Shown: piece after piece, positions 3,954 to 12,407 of the stretch
How positions within the stretch are numbered: position 1 is the stretch's first letter
Layout of the letters: every line of letters starts with the position of its first letter
Origin: Burkholderiales bacterium
Lineage (GTDB): Bacteria > Pseudomonadota > Gammaproteobacteria > Burkholderiales > Casimicrobiaceae
Length of the DNA stretch: 41,609 bases
NCBI GenBank assembly: GCA_020845855.1
Contig: JADLEZ010000447.1
Location: forward strand, 1 to 41,609
Direction: 5' to 3'
Translations under genes and position numbers: made by a program
Notes under the pieces: model-generated
Databases searched by the model: none
What the model saw: the letters and a program-made list of their open reading frames with translations, nothing else
Told to the model about the DNA's origin: nothing

Positions 3954-5054
3954 CTACCGGGGCTTGATCGTCACCCGGACGAATTCCGCCCCTCGGTTGT
4001 TGCGATAGAGCAGGGTGGTCTCCGGGTCAGCGTGTCCCAGGAGCTGCTGCGTGTCGACGTTGCCCTGGGCGCCGTAGAGGCGCTCAGCGAGACTCCGGAT
4101 CTCGTGGAAGGTGGGAGGTGTCTTCTCGCCCCAATCGAGCCCCAGGGCCGCCAGGGCGCCGGAGAAGCGCCGGGAGACGGTGTCCTTCCAGATGGGGCTC
4201 CCGACGGGGCTGTTGCCGTAGGGGGCGGTCTGGTGGATCAGGTAGCGCGAGAGCACCCCGGTGCGCCGGCACTGCTCGTAGACGTCCCGCAGACTCATCC
4301 CGAAGGCGTCGAGGCGCAGCTCGAGCGGGATCTCCAGCTTCGCACCGGTCTTGCGCTGCGTCAGGCGCCAGGCGTCGTCCCGGAATTCGGCAACCTGGGC
4401 GAGCGCGATGTCCTCCCGGCGCTGCCCGGTGAGCAGCGCCAGGGCGATGGCATTGCGCAGCCAGACTGTCTCGCAGGACTCGTAGACCTGCCGAAGCACC
4501 GTCAGGGTGAGGCGGGCGCGCTTCACGACCACCCGGCCGGCTCGGACGTCCCGGACCGGGTTCTCGTCCAGCCAGCCGGGCACGATCGCGGCCCGGCTGA
4601 ACTCTTTCAGGAACGACCGCCATGCCTGCGCCAAGCGCGGCGTGCCCGCCAGCGCTTTCAGTGCTGCGTCGACCGTCAGGGGCGTTATGCTGCGGATGGG
4701 TGCGCGCTCGCCGAAGGTCTGGAGAGTGCGCCCAAGGAGGCTCTTGTACGACTTCAGGGTGTTGGCCGCCAGGGGCGGGTCGCGGGCCTTGAGATCCTGC
4801 CAGAACCGCTCTCCCCAGGCGCCGACCGTGCGCTCCTGGTTCCCCGTGAGGCGGTCGACAAGTCGAGGCTGGTCGAGCTGCTTGGCGAGCCAGAGGTTCG
4901 CCTCGATCGCTTGCCGAAAGGCGTCCTCCTTCGCGATGCGGCCAAGCCCGATCTCCTCGCGCGTGCGTGGATCCCTCCATGTGAAATAGCCGCCGCGGCA
5001 GTAGAGGTTTGCGGGCCAGCCGCGCCTGGAGAGGCTACGGCGCCGGGGTGTCAC
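3954..5054 (-). CDS. int: Site-specific tyrosine recombinase (lambda-type integrase)
   Basis: Catalyses integration and, with Xis, excision at the 28-bp core. The 366-residue protein has an N-terminal arm-binding type segment (about 1-65), a core-binding SAM-like region (about 75-170) and a catalytic domain. Visible catalytic residues: R212 in TGQRRED, K235 in QRKTGAK, H317 and R320 in FHEIRS, H341 in LLGHAD and nucleophile Y350 in LLYRNNRG. The end of the protein resembles lambda Int (HELRSL, LLGHK, YRDDRG). GTG start at 5054 overlaps xis by 20 bases. It is read toward attL and is the last gene of the leftward early operon. Confidence 0.93.
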   Translation of the reverse strand: MTPRRRSLSRRGWPANLYCRGGYFTWRDPRTREEIGLGRIAKEDAFRQAIEANLWLAKQLDQPRLVDRLTGNQERTVGAWGERFWQDLKARDPPLAANTLKSYKSLLGRTLQTFGERAPIRSITPLTVDAALKALAGTPRLAQAWRSFLKEFSRAAIVPGWLDENPVRDVRAGRVVVKRARLTLTVLRQVYESCETVWLRNAIALALLTGQRREDIALAQVAEFRDDAWRLTQRKTGAKLEIPLELRLDAFGMSLRDVYEQCRRTGVLSRYLIHQTAPYGNSPVGSPIWKDTVSRRFSGALAALGLDWGEKTPPTFHEIRSLAERLYGAQGNVDTQQLLGHADPETTLLYRNNRGAEFVRVTIKPR

Positions 5055-5256
5055 GGGTCAGCCTCTGCACCAGCTGCTCGTCCGACAGGTACTCGGCGTT
5101 GGGGCTGACATAGTACGCCCGGCCGTGCTTCTGCGGGGCAGGGTGGATTTTTCCCTCTCGGGCCCACCGGCGGATGGTCTGGACGTGAGGCGTACGAATC
5201 GGGAAGCGCCGCTCGGCCCAGGTGTCCAAGGGGATGAGTTGTCCGGCTGCACTCAT
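5035..5256 (-). CDS. xis: Excisionase (lambda Xis-like winged-helix protein)
   Basis: A 73-residue protein with LIPLDTWAERRF, then TIRRWAREGKIHPAPQKHGRAYYV. This matches the architecture of lambda Xis (LTLQEWNARQ, ETVRRWVREC, IFPPPVKDGREYL). It would bend the attachment-site DNA and direct Int toward excision. The track ORF opens upstream at 5484; I choose ATG 5256, which gives the Xis-like start and overlaps the stop of the gene before it (ATGA). Its 3' end overlaps int by 20 bases, as xis and int overlap in lambda. Confidence 0.85.
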   Translation of the reverse strand: MSAAGQLIPLDTWAERRFPIRTPHVQTIRRWAREGKIHPAPQKHGRAYYVSPNAEYLSDEQLVQRLTRDTPAP

Positions 5257-5465
5257 GCGTTCGGTATCCGCCACGCCAGAATATCTCGATACAGCGTCGG
5301 CGCGTCGAGCTCGGCCAGCGGCTCTGCGCGCAGGAGCAGGCGCTGTGCGGCCTGCAATGCGCGCTCCAGTTCCTTTACTCGCGCGCGGAGGGCGTCGTGC
5401 ACCTCGGCCGATACGTCCGGCCTCGTCACGTCGTGCGCGCAGGTCGCTGACTTCGCATCGGTCAT
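5253..5465 (-). CDS. Small coiled-coil protein upstream of xis, unknown function
   Basis: Start chosen at ATG 5465, nine bases after AAGGAG; this gives 70 residues. Two inputs support reality: the good ribosome binding site and the 4-base stop/start overlap with xis. The middle (SAEVHDALRARVKELERALQAAQRLLLRAE) reads as a heptad-rich amphipathic helix. No known family is recognised. As the gene immediately before xis it may help in recombination, but that is only position. Confidence 0.6.
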   Translation of the reverse strand: MTDAKSATCAHDVTRPDVSAEVHDALRARVKELERALQAAQRLLLRAEPLAELDAPTLYRDILAWRIPNA

Positions 5466-5526
5466 CCTCGTCATCTCCTTGCAAACGCCCCGGAAACCGC
5501 CGGGGCTCGGTGTCAGCTTCGAGCGG

Positions 5527-6309
5527 TCAGGCGGCACCTGCCGCGATAATCTTTTCACACCACACTCTGACGCCCGGACCGACGACCGCGGCCGCGTCGC
5601 CCTTCAGCGCAACAACCGTCTTGCGGATCTTCTGCTCGTCCGGCATCTGGAATTGGGCGCTGACCTTCGACGGGTCGACCACCTCGAATTTCCAAACTTC
5701 CCGCGTGCTGACACCGATCGCCTTCGGCTGCTCGGCCTGCACCACCGGCGCGACGATCATCGCGGCAGCCTGCTGGAAGCTCTCGGCCTTCACCTCCGCG
5801 CGCTCAACCTTCGCCTCGGCGCGTGCGGCGAGCTTCGCGGCTTCCGCGGCGCGGCCCGCCTCGGCCTCCGCGTCCGCGCGGGCGCGCAGCTCCGCGGCCT
5901 CTCGCGCGGCCTTCTCCCGCGCGGCAGCGGCCTCGCGCTCGGCGCGCAACCGTGCCTGGCGGGCTTCCTCATCGGCAATGCGCTGCTTCTCGCGGCGGAT
6001 GCGCTCCTGCTCATCCGAGTACGCGATCAGCCGCGACTTGATCGTCCGCTCGATTGCTGCCAGGCGCTCCGCCGGCGCGCGGAAGAAGCTATTCAGGCGC
6101 TTCAGCGATTCGTTGATTGGGCGCGTGAAGGCCGTGCGCGTTTCTTCGAGGTGCTTCTGCGCGGCCTTCACGCGCTTCAGATCCTCGGCGCCGGCCTGGT
6201 ACTGCTCGGGCGTCGTGACGACGTAGGCGCTTGCGAAGGATTCCAGATCGCTGATTTGCGACGCGAGAGCCTGCACTTCGGGGCGGGATTCGAGGGGGTC
6301 AAGCTGCAT
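5527..6309 (-). CDS. Phage coiled-coil protein of the recombination cluster
   Basis: A 260-residue protein: an N-terminal helical part (1-95), a long Ala/Glu/Arg-rich coiled coil (about 95-185, e.g. REAAELRARADAEAEAGRAA) and a compact C-terminal domain with PDEQKIRKTVVALKGDAAAV and PGVRVWCEKIIA. That C-terminal motif recurs in hypothetical phage proteins beside RecT/Bet and exonuclease genes, from memory of the family. It overlaps the exonuclease gene by 11 bases. Function unknown; a role in recombination or DNA-end processing is inferred from neighbours only. Confidence 0.7.
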   Translation of the reverse strand: MQLDPLESRPEVQALASQISDLESFASAYVVTTPEQYQAGAEDLKRVKAAQKHLEETRTAFTRPINESLKRLNSFFRAPAERLAAIERTIKSRLIAYSDEQERIRREKQRIADEEARQARLRAEREAAAAREKAAREAAELRARADAEAEAGRAAEAAKLAARAEAKVERAEVKAESFQQAAAMIVAPVVQAEQPKAIGVSTREVWKFEVVDPSKVSAQFQMPDEQKIRKTVVALKGDAAAVVGPGVRVWCEKIIAAGAA

Positions 6310-6886
6310 TGCGGGATCTCCAAGTGTGGACGTTAAGGCAACTCAGAAACAGCGGAAAATCCGCAGGATCGTCGAGCGCGTGCAGGCGGTAGTCGCCGGG
6401 CATGAGCTGCACGCAGTAGCGCGAAAGTGCGCGGTTGTAGCTGTTGGCATAGCACCACGCCGCGGCATACGCAGCCGTCTGGGCGCCGACCGACTTCGGC
6501 TTCATGCCCGACTTGATGTCGATCAGTGCGGGCCTGTTGCGCAGCATGCCCATGCGATCGACCGTGCCGGCGTAGCGGTACTGGCGATGCAGCACGCGCT
6601 CCTCGATGTGCGTCGGGACGAACCCGGTGTCGCCGCGGAATTTCCGCCAGCCGTCGAGGTAGGGCCGCAGGTTCATATCGAGCGCGGACTCGTCGAGCGT
6701 CCCGCGATCCCACAGTTCGCACGCTAGATGGACGTGCACGCCGAACTCCCTCGCAGCCTCTAGCGTCCTGGCCGGCACATTCTCGTACTGATCGAGCACC
6801 TGCAGCGCCTGCGTCACGCTCGGCAGCACGCGGCCGCCGAGCGTATAGATGTGCGTCGTCGCGTTGAATTTCAGCTCAGCCAGCAT
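6299..6886 (-). CDS. PD-(D/E)XK phage exonuclease (RecE/RecB-like nuclease)
   Basis: A 195-residue nuclease. The core motif is visible: GTVDRMG (D110), ALIDIKSG (D123, K125) and QTAAYAAAW (Q136), with a glutamate in THIEERV upstream. This order fits the RecB-type PD-(D/E)XK fold. Partnered with the Bet protein immediately upstream (its start lies 11 bases inside bet) it should form a two-component recombination system: the nuclease makes 3' single strands and Bet anneals them, as Exo and Beta do in lambda. No Shine-Dalgarno is evident, so translation is probably coupled to bet. Confidence 0.85.
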   Translation of the reverse strand: MLAELKFNATTHIYTLGGRVLPSVTQALQVLDQYENVPARTLEAAREFGVHVHLACELWDRGTLDESALDMNLRPYLDGWRKFRGDTGFVPTHIEERVLHRQYRYAGTVDRMGMLRNRPALIDIKSGMKPKSVGAQTAAYAAAWCYANSYNRALSRYCVQLMPGDYRLHALDDPADFPLFLSCLNVHTWRSRNAA

Positions 6887-7781
6887 GGAGGCTGTTCAAC
6901 CAGATGAGGGCGTCGGGGATCTTCGTGGCGGGGAACGATTCGAGCCCCGTGCCGGCGACATCGAACTTTTCCAGCAGTTCGGACTCGGGTACGCCCGCGA
7001 AGTCGAGGACGTTGCGGAGCTGGCCGAACAGTTCTTCCTCGGTCGGCGGGAGCAGGTCGGCCGGCGCAGTGGACGCAGCGGCGCGTGCCTGTGGCGCCGT
7101 GGTTTTCGGCTTTGTGCTCACCGGCTGGGCGGTGATGTCGATTACACGACCTTCCATTTCTTCCGCCGTCGCTTCCCCGCCGAGTTCGTCGGGAAATGCC
7201 TCGCGGAGCGCCGCCGCCTCCGCGCATTTCGTCAGCATCTGCGTCGGCGACTTCGACCACTTCTCGTTGAGGCTCAGCTTGCCGGTTTGCTTGTCCTTCT
7301 TCGTGTTCGCGACCTCGCTGAAGACGACGCGCACGCAGAACTCCATCTTCTCTTTCGCGCGATCGCTCCAGCGGTAGACCGACACCTCGCACCAGGACGG
7401 CGCGTCGATGTCTAGATACGGCTCAATAGGGCCGTACTTGAACGCCGAGCGCCCCATGTAGAGGCCGGTGCGGTGCGCGGTGATCCGGTACTCGTAGATG
7501 CCCGGTAGGATCACGTCGCGCCAGCCGTAGCTGCCGGTTTTCGCGTCCCGCACGTTCATCGGGACGATGTGGCAGGGCTTCTTCATGACGTCGAGCTGCC
7601 GCGCCTTGCAGTAGTCAACGGCCATCAGAATCGAGTCGTTCGAAGCGCCGGGGAACAGCGATCCCTTGAGAGTGCGCCACTGCGCTTCGTTTAGACCGCG
7701 GCGCGCAACCGGTTCTGGAAGTGCATCCGCGCCGGGTGCGCCGAGAGTCGGGGGGGCGGTGGTGGTCTGGGACTTGCTCAT
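6876..7781 (-). CDS. bet: Single-strand annealing recombinase, Bet/RecT family
   Basis: Protein of 301 residues that anneals complementary single strands in phage recombination. Family features: an early SILMAVDYCKARQLDVMKKPCHIVPM, then WRDVILPGIYEYRITAHRTG, and KWSKSPTQMLTKCAEAAALREAFPDELGGEAT near residue 200, as in TIGR01913-type Bet proteins. The last 90 residues are a low-complexity linker and a helical tail. The track ORF opens at 8171; ATG 7781 has AGGAG eight bases upstream and gives the normal N-terminus. Next gene downstream is its nuclease partner. Confidence 0.92.
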   Translation of the reverse strand: MSKSQTTTAPPTLGAPGADALPEPVARRGLNEAQWRTLKGSLFPGASNDSILMAVDYCKARQLDVMKKPCHIVPMNVRDAKTGSYGWRDVILPGIYEYRITAHRTGLYMGRSAFKYGPIEPYLDIDAPSWCEVSVYRWSDRAKEKMEFCVRVVFSEVANTKKDKQTGKLSLNEKWSKSPTQMLTKCAEAAALREAFPDELGGEATAEEMEGRVIDITAQPVSTKPKTTAPQARAAASTAPADLLPPTEEELFGQLRNVLDFAGVPESELLEKFDVAGTGLESFPATKIPDALIWLNSLHAG

Positions 7782-7831
7782 CGTCGGTACTCCTATGTGG
7801 GTGTGGTGCGCGACATGCGCACGCTCGGCCA

Positions 7832-8038
7832 TCAGTTCGTGGTCTTGCGCTGCGCCTGCCAGCGCCGGAATTCGGCGAGTTTGTCGCGCGGGTCGTCCTC
7901 GGGCGCCTCGTCCACGTACATCTGCGCGCCGCGATACCACGCGCGCCACTCGATGACCCACGCCACGAGCGCGCAGACCCCGAGCAGCCCGAGCAGGATC
8001 GCGAGCACGGCCAGGTCGGACTCGATGAGCGGCCTCAT
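7832..8038 (-). CDS. Small single-pass membrane protein, unknown function
   Basis: 68 residues from ATG 8038: a short N-terminus (MRPLIESD), one strong membrane helix (LAVLAILLGLLGVCALVAWVIEW, about 9-31), then a charged cytoplasmic tail ending KLAEFRRWQAQRKTTN. The start overlaps the stop of the gene before it (ATGA). It is part of the PL operon, immediately before bet. Lambdoid phages carry host-takeover or exclusion proteins in this position, but no family is recognised. Confidence 0.6.
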   Translation of the reverse strand: MRPLIESDLAVLAILLGLLGVCALVAWVIEWRAWYRGAQMYVDEAPEDDPRDKLAEFRRWQAQRKTTN

Positions 8039-8208
8039 GCCGGCGCCCCCTCGGCGCGCTCGGCGTCTTCGGCGTCGCTCGCGCGCTGCAGGATCGCTTC
8101 GACTTTGGCCAGCGCGGCGTCGTAGCCGGCGAGCCAGCCCGCGCGCCACGCGGCAGGGGCGGGTAGCGCAAGGCTATCCGGCATCTCTGGGATCGTGATG
8201 TCGGTCAT
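8035..8208 (-). CDS. Small hypothetical phage protein
   Basis: 57 residues from ATG 8208, with AGAGAGG seven bases upstream. It contains AAWRAGWLAGYDAALAKVEAILQRASDAED, probably one amphipathic helix with a GWxxGYDAA-type pattern often seen in short phage proteins. Stop overlaps the next start. No function can be assigned. Confidence 0.55.
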   Translation of the reverse strand: MTDITIPEMPDSLALPAPAAWRAGWLAGYDAALAKVEAILQRASDAEDAERAEGAPA

Positions 8209-8209
8209 G

Positions 8210-8419
8210 TCAGTACCTCTCTCGGGCTTCTCTTGTGGCGTCGCGGCGGCCGAGGGCATAGGCCGCGCGCAGCAGCTCGGCGAGTAGCGCAGTGGATGCG
8301 CCGGGCAGCAGCGGCAGCAGCGGCAGCAGCGCGGCATCGCACTCGCGCTCGCAGCGATCAGAGTCAATGGCGCGCGGCAGACCCGGCGCGCGAGTCTCGG
8401 ACTCGATCACAGCGCTCAT
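8210..8419 (-). CDS. Small hypothetical phage protein
   Basis: 69 residues from ATG 8419; the start overlaps the stop of the zinc-ribbon gene (ATGA), and the track ORF start at 8554 lies inside that gene. Sequence ends in GASTALLAELLRAAYALGRRDATREARERY, helical, with an ALGRRDA pattern shared by other small phage proteins. Translation is likely coupled to the first gene of the operon. Function unknown. Confidence 0.55.
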   Translation of the reverse strand: MSAVIESETRAPGLPRAIDSDRCERECDAALLPLLPLLPGASTALLAELLRAAYALGRRDATREARERY

Positions 8420-8757
8420 ACCCGGGCCGCCTGGTATTCGCAGGCCCGACACATCGCGATGCCGTCCTCGACATGCCAGCCGTACCGCGCCGCACGCTCG
8501 CGCTCGATCGTGTCGCCGCACTCGCAGCAGTCGAGGATCGAGGCGGCCTCGCACTCGCCGCAGTAGTGCTTAGGCTCGATCCCGCTGCCCTCGCAGCGCG
8601 GGCACCAGTCTTTGACATCGCGGAATCGCGCGTCGTCACCGCTGCCGCTGTAGGTGATCGGCTCGATACCGACCGTCACGCGGCACGCGCCGGCGCACTC
8701 GGTGCAGGCATTGCCAGCGACTAGCAGGTGGCTGGCGTCGTCGTCGGGGTGGTACAT
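8416..8757 (-). CDS. Cysteine-rich zinc-ribbon protein, first gene of the leftward operon
   Basis: 113 residues with CTECAGAC, CPRCEGSG, CGEC, CCECGDTI and CRACEYQ, i.e. four or five CxxC knuckles that could bind at least two zinc ions. CPRCEGSG resembles the DnaJ-type cysteine repeat. ATG 8757 follows GGAGG by five bases. It is the first product made from PL, the slot held by the antiterminator N in lambda. There is no similarity to N and no arginine-rich motif, so an early regulatory or host-takeover role is speculation. Confidence 0.65.
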   Translation of the reverse strand: MYHPDDDASHLLVAGNACTECAGACRVTVGIEPITYSGSGDDARFRDVKDWCPRCEGSGIEPKHYCGECEAASILDCCECGDTIERERAARYGWHVEDGIAMCRACEYQAARV

Positions 8758-8781
8758 GGGGCCTCCGGGTGGGTGGAAACG

Positions 8782-8810
8782 AGAATAGCCCAGCTATTAA
8801 TGTCCGTCAA
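8782..8810 (-). promoter_or_regulatory. Candidate early leftward promoter PL
   Basis: On the - strand TTGACG (8805-8810) and TATTCT (8782-8787) are separated by exactly 17 bp, a good sigma-70 promoter. Transcription would begin near 8775, just before the GGAGG of the zinc-ribbon gene. Both hexamers are overlapped by the operator copies at 8784-8798 and 8809-8823, so repressor binding should block it. Confidence 0.7.
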
Positions 8811-8823
8811 TAGTGGAGCTATT
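8784..8823. promoter_or_regulatory. Left operator region: two copies of the 15-bp operator
   Basis: AATAGCCCAGCTATT (8784-8798) is a perfect 6-3-6 dyad and AATAGTGGAGCTATT (8809-8823) has one arm mismatch. Centres are 25 bp apart. Three related copies lie between the repressor and cro genes (10540-10614). They flank PL in the way lambda OL sites do. The repressor and Cro-like proteins of this phage are the obvious binders. Confidence 0.75.
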
Positions 8824-8884
8824 GCCGCGAGCTGTCGACGCCGTATTTCCGACAGTACCGGCCGGCGCGGCGGGTCGGTCGGCT

Positions 8885-8930
8885 GTTGGCATGATTGACA
8901 ACGCGCGTAGCCGTTGGCATCATGGCCAAC
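8885..8930 (+). promoter_or_regulatory. Promoter and tandem operator of the toxin-antitoxin pair
   Basis: GTTGGCATGATTGACAAC (8885-8902) and GTTGGCATCATGGCCAAC (8913-8930) match at 15 of 18 positions, 28 bp apart, and each carries an inverted GTTG.../...CAAC pair. A consensus -35 TTGACA (8895-8900) lies in the first copy; CATCAT (8918-8923), 17 bp on, is a fair -10 in the second. The start of transcription would fall at about 8930, next to ATG 8931. The likely ligand is the HTH antitoxin encoded second in the operon. Confidence 0.55.
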
Positions 8931-9215
8931 ATGCCGGCGACCCTCTTACTGCGCGACCGTCTCGACTTCGACGACGGCACGCGGGTGGAGATGGTGATCT
9001 GGCGCGTGCCGCAGCCGGTCGAGGGCTGCACGCACGGCTACAAGTACCGCCTGTACTTCGGGCGCGAAGGCGCGCGCATCGTCGGCTACGACAACGAGCG
9101 GCCGAAGGGCGATCACCGGCACCTCGGCCGACGCGAGATGCGCTATGTGTTCACGAGCGTGGAGCAGCTGGTCGCCGATTTCCTCTCCGACGTCGAGCAA
9201 TGGAGGGCGCGATGA
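8931..9215 (+). CDS. TumE-family (DUF6516) toxin
   Basis: 94 residues from ATG 8931. Family hallmarks are LLLRDRLDFDDGTRVEMVIWRVP, HGYKYRLYFG, GYDNERPKGDHRH and YVFTSVEQLVADFLSDVE. These belong to the DUF6516 proteins annotated as TumE toxins of a type II-like system; the biochemical target is not certain. An in-frame ATG at 8922 is also possible, but the promoter -10 would overlap it. The stop overlaps the antitoxin start (ATGA), giving the tight toxin-first order usual for TumE/TumA. It lies between PL and the repressor, where lysogeny-expressed genes are common. Confidence 0.8.
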   Translation: MPATLLLRDRLDFDDGTRVEMVIWRVPQPVEGCTHGYKYRLYFGREGARIVGYDNERPKGDHRHLGRREMRYVFTSVEQLVADFLSDVEQWRAR

Positions 9216-9619
9216 AGACCGTCACAATCCGCATCGAGCGGGACACCGGCAAGGCGCTGCGCCAGATGGGCGAGCGCTTCGTGCGCGCTTGGAACAGCGG
9301 CGGCAGGGCGGGCGGCAGCTTTCTCACGTTCGAATCGCCGGCGGCGCTGTTTCGGGTGCTGACGCCGACGCGCTGGGCGCTGATCGAACGGTTGCAGGCG
9401 CTGGGGCCAACGAGCCAGCGGGCGCTCGCGCGCGCGCTCGAACGCGACGTGAAGCGTGTGCACGGCGATGTGCAGGCACTGATCGAGCTGGGCCTCGTCG
9501 ATCGCACGGAGGCTGGCCAGGTGCGCGTGCCCTACGAGGTGATCCGCGCCGACTTCGACCTGCGGGCAGCGCGCATCCAGCCGCCCCCTCGGGCGGAGGA
9601 GGCGGCGAGCGCTACGTGA
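9212..9619 (+). CDS. TumA-like antitoxin, winged-HTH DNA-binding protein
   Basis: 135 residues from ATG 9212, five bases after GGAGGG, rather than the upstream track start. The first part (KTVTIRIERDTGKALRQMG) is followed by a MarR-like winged helix: TPTRWALIERLQALGPTSQRALARALERDVKRVHGDVQALIELGLVDRTEAGQVRVPYE. This fold follows TumE in known pairs, where it neutralises the toxin and represses the operon. It may bind the tandem 18-bp sites at 8885-8930. The last 20 residues are a disordered tail. Confidence 0.78.
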   Translation: MKTVTIRIERDTGKALRQMGERFVRAWNSGGRAGGSFLTFESPAALFRVLTPTRWALIERLQALGPTSQRALARALERDVKRVHGDVQALIELGLVDRTEAGQVRVPYEVIRADFDLRAARIQPPPRAEEAASAT

Positions 9620-9693
9620 GGATGCGGCTCTAACTCGGGTCGAACTGCTGTGGTGCTGGCGGGAGAGGCGGCGCGCTTTGCTATATTGCCGCC

Positions 9694-10029
9694 ATGGAAT
9701 CCTCTCTCGATCCCTCGACGTTCGAGGCAGGAACGCGCGCTCGGATCGCTTCCCCGGTCCCTGGCGCCCGCTTCACCGACGAGGGCTGGCTCGTTCCGCG
9801 CCCTTCGCGCGGAGGGTGGCTCGATCGCTTACTTGTTCCGTTGACCGTGATCCTGCTGCTGGCCGTCGCCGCGCAATGCGTGATGGCGGTCATCATGGCT
9901 CGGGAGCTGGACAGGCTGATCGCGCGTCGCGCGTCTGTTCCGCAAGCTGCAGCATGCGCCACTGAAAGTATATGGACGCCGCCCCTGATGCTGCCGCAAC
10001 CACCAGTGCTACTACCGTTGCCGCGGTGA
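9694..10029 (+). CDS. Putative membrane protein in the lysogeny region, unknown function
   Basis: 111 residues with one strong membrane segment (LLVPLTVILLLAVAAQCVMAVIMA, about 46-69) after a 45-residue polar N-terminus. A -10-like TATATT (9682-9687) lies six bases before the ATG with no Shine-Dalgarno, so a leaderless transcript is possible. The last 45 codons overlap the 3' part of the opposite-strand gene 9893-10096. Either ORF could be the shadow of the other, although the first two thirds here are free of overlap and use GC-rich codons. Confidence 0.45.
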   Translation: MESSLDPSTFEAGTRARIASPVPGARFTDEGWLVPRPSRGGWLDRLLVPLTVILLLAVAAQCVMAVIMARELDRLIARRASVPQAAACATESIWTPPLMLPQPPVLLPLPR

Positions 10030-10096
10030 CGGTGAACCTTTGCCGCTGCTCGGAGATGTAGTCGGCGCGCGTGCGCCAGGGGTTCTCGTTACCCAT
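9893..10096 (-). CDS. Putative small membrane protein cotranscribed with the repressor
   Basis: 67 residues from ATG 10096: MGNENPWRTRADYISEQRQRF, then a membrane helix (TVTAATVVALVVAAASGAASIYF, about 22-44) and a polar tail. A TTG at 10114, overlapping the repressor stop, is an alternative start. As a repressor-coupled membrane protein it would be expressed in the lysogen, the setting of superinfection-exclusion proteins, but no family is recognised. Its 3' half overlaps the convergent ORF 9694-10029. Confidence 0.5.
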   Translation of the reverse strand: MGNENPWRTRADYISEQRQRFTVTAATVVALVVAAASGAASIYFQWRMLQLAEQTRDARSACPAPEP

Positions 10097-10110
10097 CGGA
10101 CAGCAGCCGC

Positions 10111-10539
10111 TCAACCTGCGCGTCGCTGAGCGCTGCGGGGCTTCGACACGTCGGCCTCGACGGCAGCGCTTTTACTCTCCGCCTCGATCCTCTCCAACTC
10201 GCGCAGCAGCACCGACGCGATCGCCAGTTGCTGGCCCGGCGTGAGCCGGTCGTAGCGGGCGCGGTCGAAGGGGAAGGGCCAGGATATTCGCGATCTCTCC
10301 GTGGCGAGACGCCACGCCGGGCTGACTATCGCCGGTTCCAGATTCAACGCGCCGGCGAGGGCCACCGCGCGCCCCGCCGGCACGCGCATTCGTCCGTGCG
10401 CCCACTGCCACACTTGGCCCTGCGTGACTCCAACCAAGTCCGCTACGGCCTCCTGAGTGATCGCCGGGTCTCCAAGTGCTCTCCTGATCGCGGCCGCGGC
10501 TGCAAGCTCTTCGGCGGTCAGGGCGCGTTTCTTGCTCAT
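10111..10539 (-). CDS. Prophage repressor (CI-like), HTH protein without S24 peptidase domain
   Basis: 142 residues. The HTH (about 28-50) is ITQEAVADLVGVTQGQVWQWAHGR; a second helical part (FDRARYDRLTPGQQLAIASVLLRELERIEAE, about 91-121) may dimerise. It is divergent from the Cro-like gene across three operator copies, and its recognition helix (VTQGQVWQWAHGR) is nearly the same as Cro (VTQGMVWQWANGR). The protein ends without the Ala-Gly cleavage site and Ser/Lys dyad of CI/LexA peptidases, so RecA-stimulated autocleavage is not expected. ATG 10539 is the only convenient start; the first operator abuts it, pointing to autoregulation. Confidence 0.8.
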   Translation of the reverse strand: MSKKRALTAEELAAAAAIRRALGDPAITQEAVADLVGVTQGQVWQWAHGRMRVPAGRAVALAGALNLEPAIVSPAWRLATERSRISWPFPFDRARYDRLTPGQQLAIASVLLRELERIEAESKSAAVEADVSKPRSAQRRAG

Positions 10540-10614
10540 TGTAGCAACGCTATTTCGACGTTGGCCGCCACGCCACTAGTGCGGCTATTGCGATGGCTTA
10601 ATAGCCCGGCTAGT
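10540..10614. promoter_or_regulatory. Right operator region: three copies of the 15-bp operator
   Basis: TGTAGCAACGCTATT (10540-10554), ACTAGTGCGGCTATT (10575-10589) and AATAGCCCGGCTAGT (10600-10614) match the left operators (AATAGCNNNGCTATT). The second and third flank the PR -35 and -10 hexamers with centres 25 bp apart, exactly as at PL. The first copy touches the repressor start codon, 35 bp from the second, and could mediate repressor autoregulation. Confidence 0.72.
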
Positions 10615-10616
10615 AT
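10588..10616 (+). promoter_or_regulatory. Candidate early rightward promoter PR
   Basis: TTGCGA (10588-10593) and TAGTAT (10611-10616) are spaced by 17 bp. The predicted transcription start is about 10623, one base before the cro ATG, so cro may be translated from an essentially leaderless mRNA. The hexamers sit 6 bp and 4 bp beyond the operator centres, the same offsets as at PL. Confidence 0.6.
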
Positions 10617-10623
10617 GCGGGCT

Positions 10624-10857
10624 ATGGAAACATCGGCGATTGAACGCGCAGTGCAACTGGCCGGTGGCCAGACGGAGCTGGCGCGCATGCTGGGGGTGAC
10701 GCAGGGGATGGTGTGGCAGTGGGCCAATGGCCGCCGCCAGGTCGCCGCGGAGCGCGTGTTGGCGATTGAAGCAGCGACTGGTGTGTCCCGCCACGACCTC
10801 CGGCCGGACATATACCCGTTCCACGAGCGCAAGCCCCTCCGCCGCGAGGCGTCATGA
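10624..10857 (+). CDS. Cro-like HTH regulator (YdaS/Cro family)
   Basis: 77 residues: IERAVQLAGGQTELARMLGVTQGMVWQWANGRRQVAAERVLAIEAATGVSRHDLRPDIYP, the typical YdaS/Cro-type single HTH domain with the closing RHDLRPDIYP. First gene rightward of PR and divergent from the repressor, so it should act as Cro, turning off repressor synthesis in the lytic cycle through the shared operators. ATG 10624 is chosen because the predicted -10 covers the alternative ATG 10615. No ribosome binding site is visible. The stop overlaps the next start (ATGA). Confidence 0.82.
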   Translation: METSAIERAVQLAGGQTELARMLGVTQGMVWQWANGRRQVAAERVLAIEAATGVSRHDLRPDIYPFHERKPLRREAS

Positions 10858-11093
10858 GCTGCGACCTCGCCGACCTGAAGCGGCTGAAGATCACGGCGGA
10901 GACGCGCGCGTGGCTGGCCGCAGAGGCGCACGTGAGCGGCCGATCCGCGCAGGACGTCGCGCGCGACGTGCTGCACGCCAAGGCGGTCGAGAAGATCCAC
11001 GCGGCCAAAGTAATCACCGCAATGGCCGCGGGCGAGGTCCACATCAGGGACGGGCGGGCCCACATCAGGGACACCAGGGGACGCACCCCGTGA
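10854..11093 (+). CDS. Small early protein downstream of cro, unknown function
   Basis: 79 residues, basic, starting at ATG 10854 inside the cro stop, so coupled to cro. SAEDLA-type helices (ITAETRAWLAAEAHVSGRSAQDVARDVLHAKAVEKIHAAKV) occupy the first 55 residues and suggest a ribbon-helix-helix or HTH-like fold. The C-terminus repeats HIRDGRAHIRDTRG, encoded by a 21-bp tandem repeat. Position resembles cII of lambda, yet no CII similarity is seen. Confidence 0.6.
   Translation: MSCDLADLKRLKITAETRAWLAAEAHVSGRSAQDVARDVLHAKAVEKIHAAKVITAMAAGEVHIRDGRAHIRDTRGRTP
11039..11072 (+). repeat. 21-bp tandem duplication in the 3' end of the post-cro gene
   Basis: CCACATCAGGGAC occurs at 11039-11051 and 11060-11072, period 21 bp, encoding two HIRD heptads. 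The second copy also contains one GGGACA, the half-site of the nearby iteron array, which may be coincidence. Confidence 0.6.
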
Positions 11094-11132
11094 ACCGCCG
11101 CCCCGCCGTGGCGCGGCAGATCCGCGCCAAGC

Positions 11133-11433: not shown

Positions 11434-12407
<974 letters not shown>

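Follow-up and report, generated by a model that had tools for sequence, protein, structure and literature searches.

The 41.6-kb stretch of DNA analysed here (the window) very probably carries the immunity region of a temperate phage, built as a lambda-type bipartite switch with three operators (OR1, OR2 and OR3) between cI and cro and two (OL1 and OL2) in the leftward early promoter PL (Table 1). The repressor and cro genes are divergent with multiple operators between them, the same operator is repeated over PL (8784-8823), the genes for recombination, excision and integration lie in the PL operon, and the right arm carries a replication protein. A coordinated OL/OR switch had been proposed in an earlier note on this DNA; it is supported here by the presence of cI and cro at OR, by the recombination-xis-int operon that runs from OL and by the recurrence of the layout in 21 other phages.

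Table 1. Features of the putative immunity region and of the adjoining leftward operon (window coordinates).
Feature	Position	Strand	Description
Integrase	3954-5054	-	PL operon
Excisionase	5035-5484	-	PL operon
Two exonuclease-family genes	5527-6886	-	PL operon
RecT/Bet-like single-strand annealing protein	6876-8171	-	PL operon
First PL-operon gene	8416-8757	-	113 aa, cysteine-rich; without family match; GGAGG upstream
PL promoter	8782-8810	-	TTGACG (8810-8805), 17-bp spacer, TATTCT (8787-8782); leftward
OL1 operator	8784-8798		0 mismatches, perfect AATAGC-N3-GCTATT; overlaps PL -10
OL2 operator	8809-8823		1 mismatch; overlaps PL -35
cI-type repressor	10111-10539	-	142 aa; lambda-CI-like N-terminal domain; C-terminus predicted helical
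OR3 operator	10540-10554		2 mismatches; directly adjoins cI start codon; 35 bp from OR2
OR2 operator	10575-10589		2 mismatches; overlaps PR -35; centre 43 bp from cI ATG
PR promoter	10588-10616	+	TTGCGA (10588-10593), 17-bp spacer, TAGTAT (10611-10616); rightward
OR1 operator	10600-10614		1 mismatch; overlaps PR -10; centre 17 bp from cro ATG
cro	10624-10857	+	77 aa; YdaS family (PF15943); recognition motif VTQGxVWQW as in cI

The 15-bp operator AATAGCNNNGCTATT was found at five sites in the window when up to two mismatches were allowed, against a mean expectation of 0.28, and five sites were reached in none of 100 shuffles of the window. TAG at positions 3-5 is common to all ten half-sites, and OR3 is set apart from the other four sites by its TG start. 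The spacing between OR2 and OR3 (35 bp; 10540-10589) is one helical turn longer than that between OR1 and OR2. Genome-wide in the host, three sites were found at one mismatch or fewer, all of them within the window, and 29 at two or fewer, 24 of which lie outside it; the prediction of the earlier note that a scan at two mismatches would find mostly these five sites thus holds for the prophage contig and fails for the genome. Many random matches elsewhere in the prophage, which had been named as grounds for giving up the switch, did not appear, as the window scan returned only the five, and the pairing itself (two 15-bp operators at each of PL and PR, with centres 25 bp apart) was confirmed to the base. 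A literature search for the operator string found nothing relevant.

At both promoter regions (PL, 8782-8823; PR, 10575-10616) the offset from an operator centre is +6 for the -35 and +4 for the -10, and the spacer is 17 bp, just as had been claimed. A blind sigma-70 scan of the window picked PL and did not call PR, whose hexamers (TTGCGA/TAGTAT) are weaker than those of PL and match the consensus only weakly. The operator half-site GCTATT gives the first two bases of the -35 (TT) and, within the -10, TATT or TAGT. Because GCTATT doubles as a promoter element, a 17-bp promoter spacer is enough to set the operator spacing at 25 bp, and because GCTATT itself supplies part of both hexamers, the four geometric numbers are not independent. 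The exact agreement between the two sites, taken earlier as strong evidence for an OL/OR switch, is therefore worth about two independent coincidences rather than four and is largely forced: the switch stands, while the weight of the four-number agreement was overstated. As the cro ATG begins 8 bases past the last base of the PR -10, the cro mRNA is probably leaderless.

Equal-spacing double pairs of palindromes were common when templates were left unfiltered (55 of 60 surrogates) because GC-rich templates have dozens of sites, and this test was dropped as an uninformative measure of chance. After filtering for low-copy templates (palindromes with ≤8 sites, a threshold chosen after the unfiltered result had been seen), AATAGC was the only template in the window with an equal-spacing double pair (pairs >200 bp apart), and such a low-copy double pair occurred in none of 150 order-2 Markov surrogate windows. 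One might suspect that two otherwise ordinary promoters contain palindromes by chance, since both the palindromes and the promoter hexamers that they overlap are AT-rich, so that a search is biased towards finding them there, and since the host genome holds two-mismatch sites elsewhere; yet such an origin is extremely unlikely in view of the excess of sites over expectation, the empty set of filtered surrogates and the same layout in other phages, including those found by operator DNA only (see below).

Both regulators have relatives among known switch proteins. Cro matches YdaS (PF15943) with 80.3 bits, above the Pfam gathering cut-off of 30, and its nearest solved relatives are Cro proteins, the nearest being the Cro of PDB 3bd1, in which the recognition helix differs. 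The N-terminal domain of CI matches lambda CI by profile (E 7e-9), and the top matches of its predicted fold are 1lmb and 1rio (the lambda repressor-operator complex and the lambda CI/sigma-4 complex), a comparison that covers essentially the N-terminal domain only, the fold family of the C-terminal part lying outside the claim. CI and Cro are 42% identical over 59 aa and have the recognition segment VTQGxVWQW in common. In alignments, TQEAVAD of CI is paired with SQESVAD of lambda CI, the segment with the acidic residues that contact sigma; this correspondence agrees with activation of PRM, without proving it. No S24/LexA peptidase domain, the C-terminal hallmark of self-cleaving repressors, was found in CI by peptidase family matching, and the C-terminal part is predicted to be helical. 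With a short CI that is presumably not self-cleaving, induction may be independent of a peptidase and would then need an antirepressor or some other signal. LexA-type boxes are not enriched in the window (7 found, 9.2 expected), so no SOS link is made. The repressor of one relative (L109:5956-6258) has a different HTH and the same short C-terminal motif (WPFP..YDRLTPGQ..AI) as the window CI, which suggests a separately exchanged C-terminal module.

From this arrangement we infer a mode of action in which CI dimers would bind at OL1/OL2 and at OR1/OR2, mask the -35 and -10 elements of both early promoters and keep the cro and replication genes and the xis and recombination genes off. When bound at OR2, whose centre is about 43 bp upstream of the cI ATG, CI would probably activate a weak PRM, as lambda CI does, and the PRM transcript would be a leaderless cI mRNA; no convincing hexamers were found for PRM, the best -10 (TACAAT) placing the transcription start within cI. 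Cro, a paralogue of CI with the same recognition helix, would use the same sites, and at OR3, adjoining the cI start, would shut off cI and so tip the phage to lysis. A loop between OL and OR over 1.8 kb may also form. A different division of labour, with CI alone bound at OL and OR1/OR2 and Cro acting only at OR3, so that no competition for shared operators arises at PL, is unlikely, given the recognition segment and the overall identity that CI and Cro share. It does have a precedent in phiKO2, where CB binds five sites and Cro bound only OR3 (PMC4997575), a warning that the window Cro may do likewise, and the TG start of OR3 would suit it. We retain the reading in which both proteins share the operators.

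Between PL and cI (8922-9619, + strand) lie a TumE-type toxin gene (PF20126) and an HVO_A0114-type winged-helix gene (PF25212), the probable antitoxin. Their presumed promoter (TTGACA-17-CATCAT; 8885-8930) has palindromes of its own, GTTGGCN6GCCAAC at 8885 and 8913, 28 bp apart, and a two-mismatch copy of this palindrome is found at 10560-10577, within the presumed PRM. Within the replication-protein gene (11872-12050), TGTCCC/GGGACA palindromes 22 bp apart (two pairs) are followed by a tandem GGGACA repeat; these repeats are possibly origin iterons.

A blast search of 8400-11100 against annotated phages gave no match, and neither did the CI protein; relatives were therefore sought via Cro and via operator DNA. 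For the former, 100 loci with Cro relatives were fetched, and de novo palindrome detection upstream of cro revealed that in many of them two or three copies of a site of another sequence occupy similar positions. A second pair, located by each phage's own template, lies about 1-2.7 kb leftward in about half, compared with almost none in shuffled-arm controls. In the flanking DNA examined, the OL pair is absent from about half of the template-bearing Cro relatives, mostly sphingomonad phages; for example, L005, L007, L010, L012, L015 and L019 have OR operators, with no OL pair found in the flank examined. For the latter, a protein-blind scan of viral contigs, in which two tandem AATAGC sites were required, yielded 15 loci, and at several of these, next to cI/cro genes, PL and PR each have an AATAGC pair. 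The operator is indeed unlike that of lambda, as had been remarked earlier, but it is shared with other phages rather than unique to the window. The stretches examined of the Pseudomonas phages phi1 and Ab31 are without AATAGC sites, and a single such site is present close to the start of cI in Acidovorax phage AP1.

The geometry was tabulated for the window and 21 other phages in which both promoters are present (L112 left out as a near-copy of L111). OL and OR spacings are identical in 18 of these 22 and differ by no more than 1 bp in any of them, the 21 others carrying varied operator sequences; the permutation mean is 9.3 equal, a statistic that kinship between the phages inflates. Promoter offsets are near-identical within each operator class: the exact 25/+6/17/+4 pattern is found at both promoters in L113, L115, L118 and L119, with the same AATAGC operator, and in L008 (from Stenotrophomonas humi), L033, L042 and L069, with a CTTAGG operator, and further classes each keep a set of values of their own, such as 23/+4/17/+4 in the TCAAGC class. 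The 35-bp distance between OR2 and OR3 (the 35/25 pattern) also occurs in L008, L033 and L069, and in L115 it is 25 bp, about one helical turn shorter. In most relatives 41-45 bp separate the cI ATG from the centre of OR2, and in most phages examined 15-20 bp separate the cro ATG from the centre of OR1; L047, L065, L080, L092 and L119 depart in one or both distances. These conserved distances fit leaderless mRNAs for both genes, the cro ATG being so close to where transcription should begin that a leader would not fit; the first gene of the PL operon, by contrast, is preceded by GGAGG. At the level of sequence, these comparisons show a layout that is conserved among related phages while the binding sequence changes.

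Matching geometry could also have arisen by duplication of one promoter-operator block, without selection for coordinated control: TTAATAGC is common to the PL and PR blocks, in register, and the two blocks are near-identical in some relatives (for example, L111). In the window, however, the blocks are not clearly alike beyond operators and promoter hexamers, and the match in geometry persists across phages with unrelated operators, which would need continued selection whatever its origin. Duplication as the sole cause is thus quite unlikely, and selection for coordinated control is the preferred reading.

Among 42 phages, in a table assembled by hand, similarity of the Cro recognition segment correlates with similarity of the operator (Mantel r 0.435; maximum of 5000 permutations, 0.237), relatedness inflating the permutation statistics. 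The motif [ST][QS]Gx[VI][WY]Q is present in 8 of 9 AATAGC phages and in 1 of 33 others, the AATAGC set being a mixture of protein-based and DNA-based finds; phages found by operator DNA alone have the exact 25/+6/17/+4 geometry in common and mostly carry the [ST]QGx[VI][WY]Q type of recognition helix in Cro. For Cro proteins, such a relationship was put forward by Hall, Lefevre and Cordes (2005), as cited in PMC4997575. We tentatively suggest, with somewhat less than even confidence, that phages with YdaS-type Cro have a conserved chassis, in which the distances between start codons, promoters and operators are fixed, both regulators are made from leaderless mRNAs, and operator and recognition helix are swapped as matched sets, combined here with a short CI that does not cleave itself.

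The region is a clear example of the switch layout of phage lambda in which the binding sequence differs and the repressor is shorter, the basic mechanism being already known. Divergent cI and cro, three OR sites, OL in the promoter of the leftward recombination/xis/int genes and a homologous CI N-terminal domain are found in both, and the distance from OR2 to the cI start resembles that at lambda PRM. The differences are that operators are 15-bp AATAGC sites rather than 17-bp sites, that only two OL sites were found, that CI is without a detected peptidase domain and Cro of the YdaS type, that OR2 and OR3 are 35 bp apart, and that PL and cI are separated by a TumE-type TA pair.

The nearest known systems are PaaR2/YdaS of CP-933P and N15/phiKO2. 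CP-933P is the best functional precedent: PaaR2 and YdaS both repress PR and PL through related operators, and as in the window there is a YdaS-type Cro, a small CI-like repressor (His-tagged PaaR2 is 15 kDa), operators at OR and OL and a TA module in the immunity region, the paaR2 mRNA being leaderless by RACE (PMC8630535). Unlike the window, CP-933P has three OL operators and an operator consensus based on GTTTAGTAA, with four repeats at equal spacing; its TA module is in the paaR2 operon, whereas that of the window is on the strand opposite to cI, and its CII analogue, YdaT, has no counterpart recognised in the window (PMC8630535). The immB region of N15/phiKO2 likewise has five operators (three OR and two OL) and a repressor that lacks self-cleavage residues, comparable to a window CI in which no peptidase domain was detected, but its operators are 16-bp TA-N10-TA sites and OL precedes repA of a plasmid prophage (PMC4997575). 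In immB of PY54, which has only one operator (OR3), the cI and cro mRNAs are both leaderless by RACE (PMC4488713), the arrangement that we infer for the window.

An otherwise unstudied prophage thus gains a well-defined immunity region. Together with its relatives, the window forms a natural series in which the layout is constant and the operator class changes with the recognition helix, and this series would be useful to test the recognition rules proposed for Cro proteins and to predict phage immunity groups from sequence.
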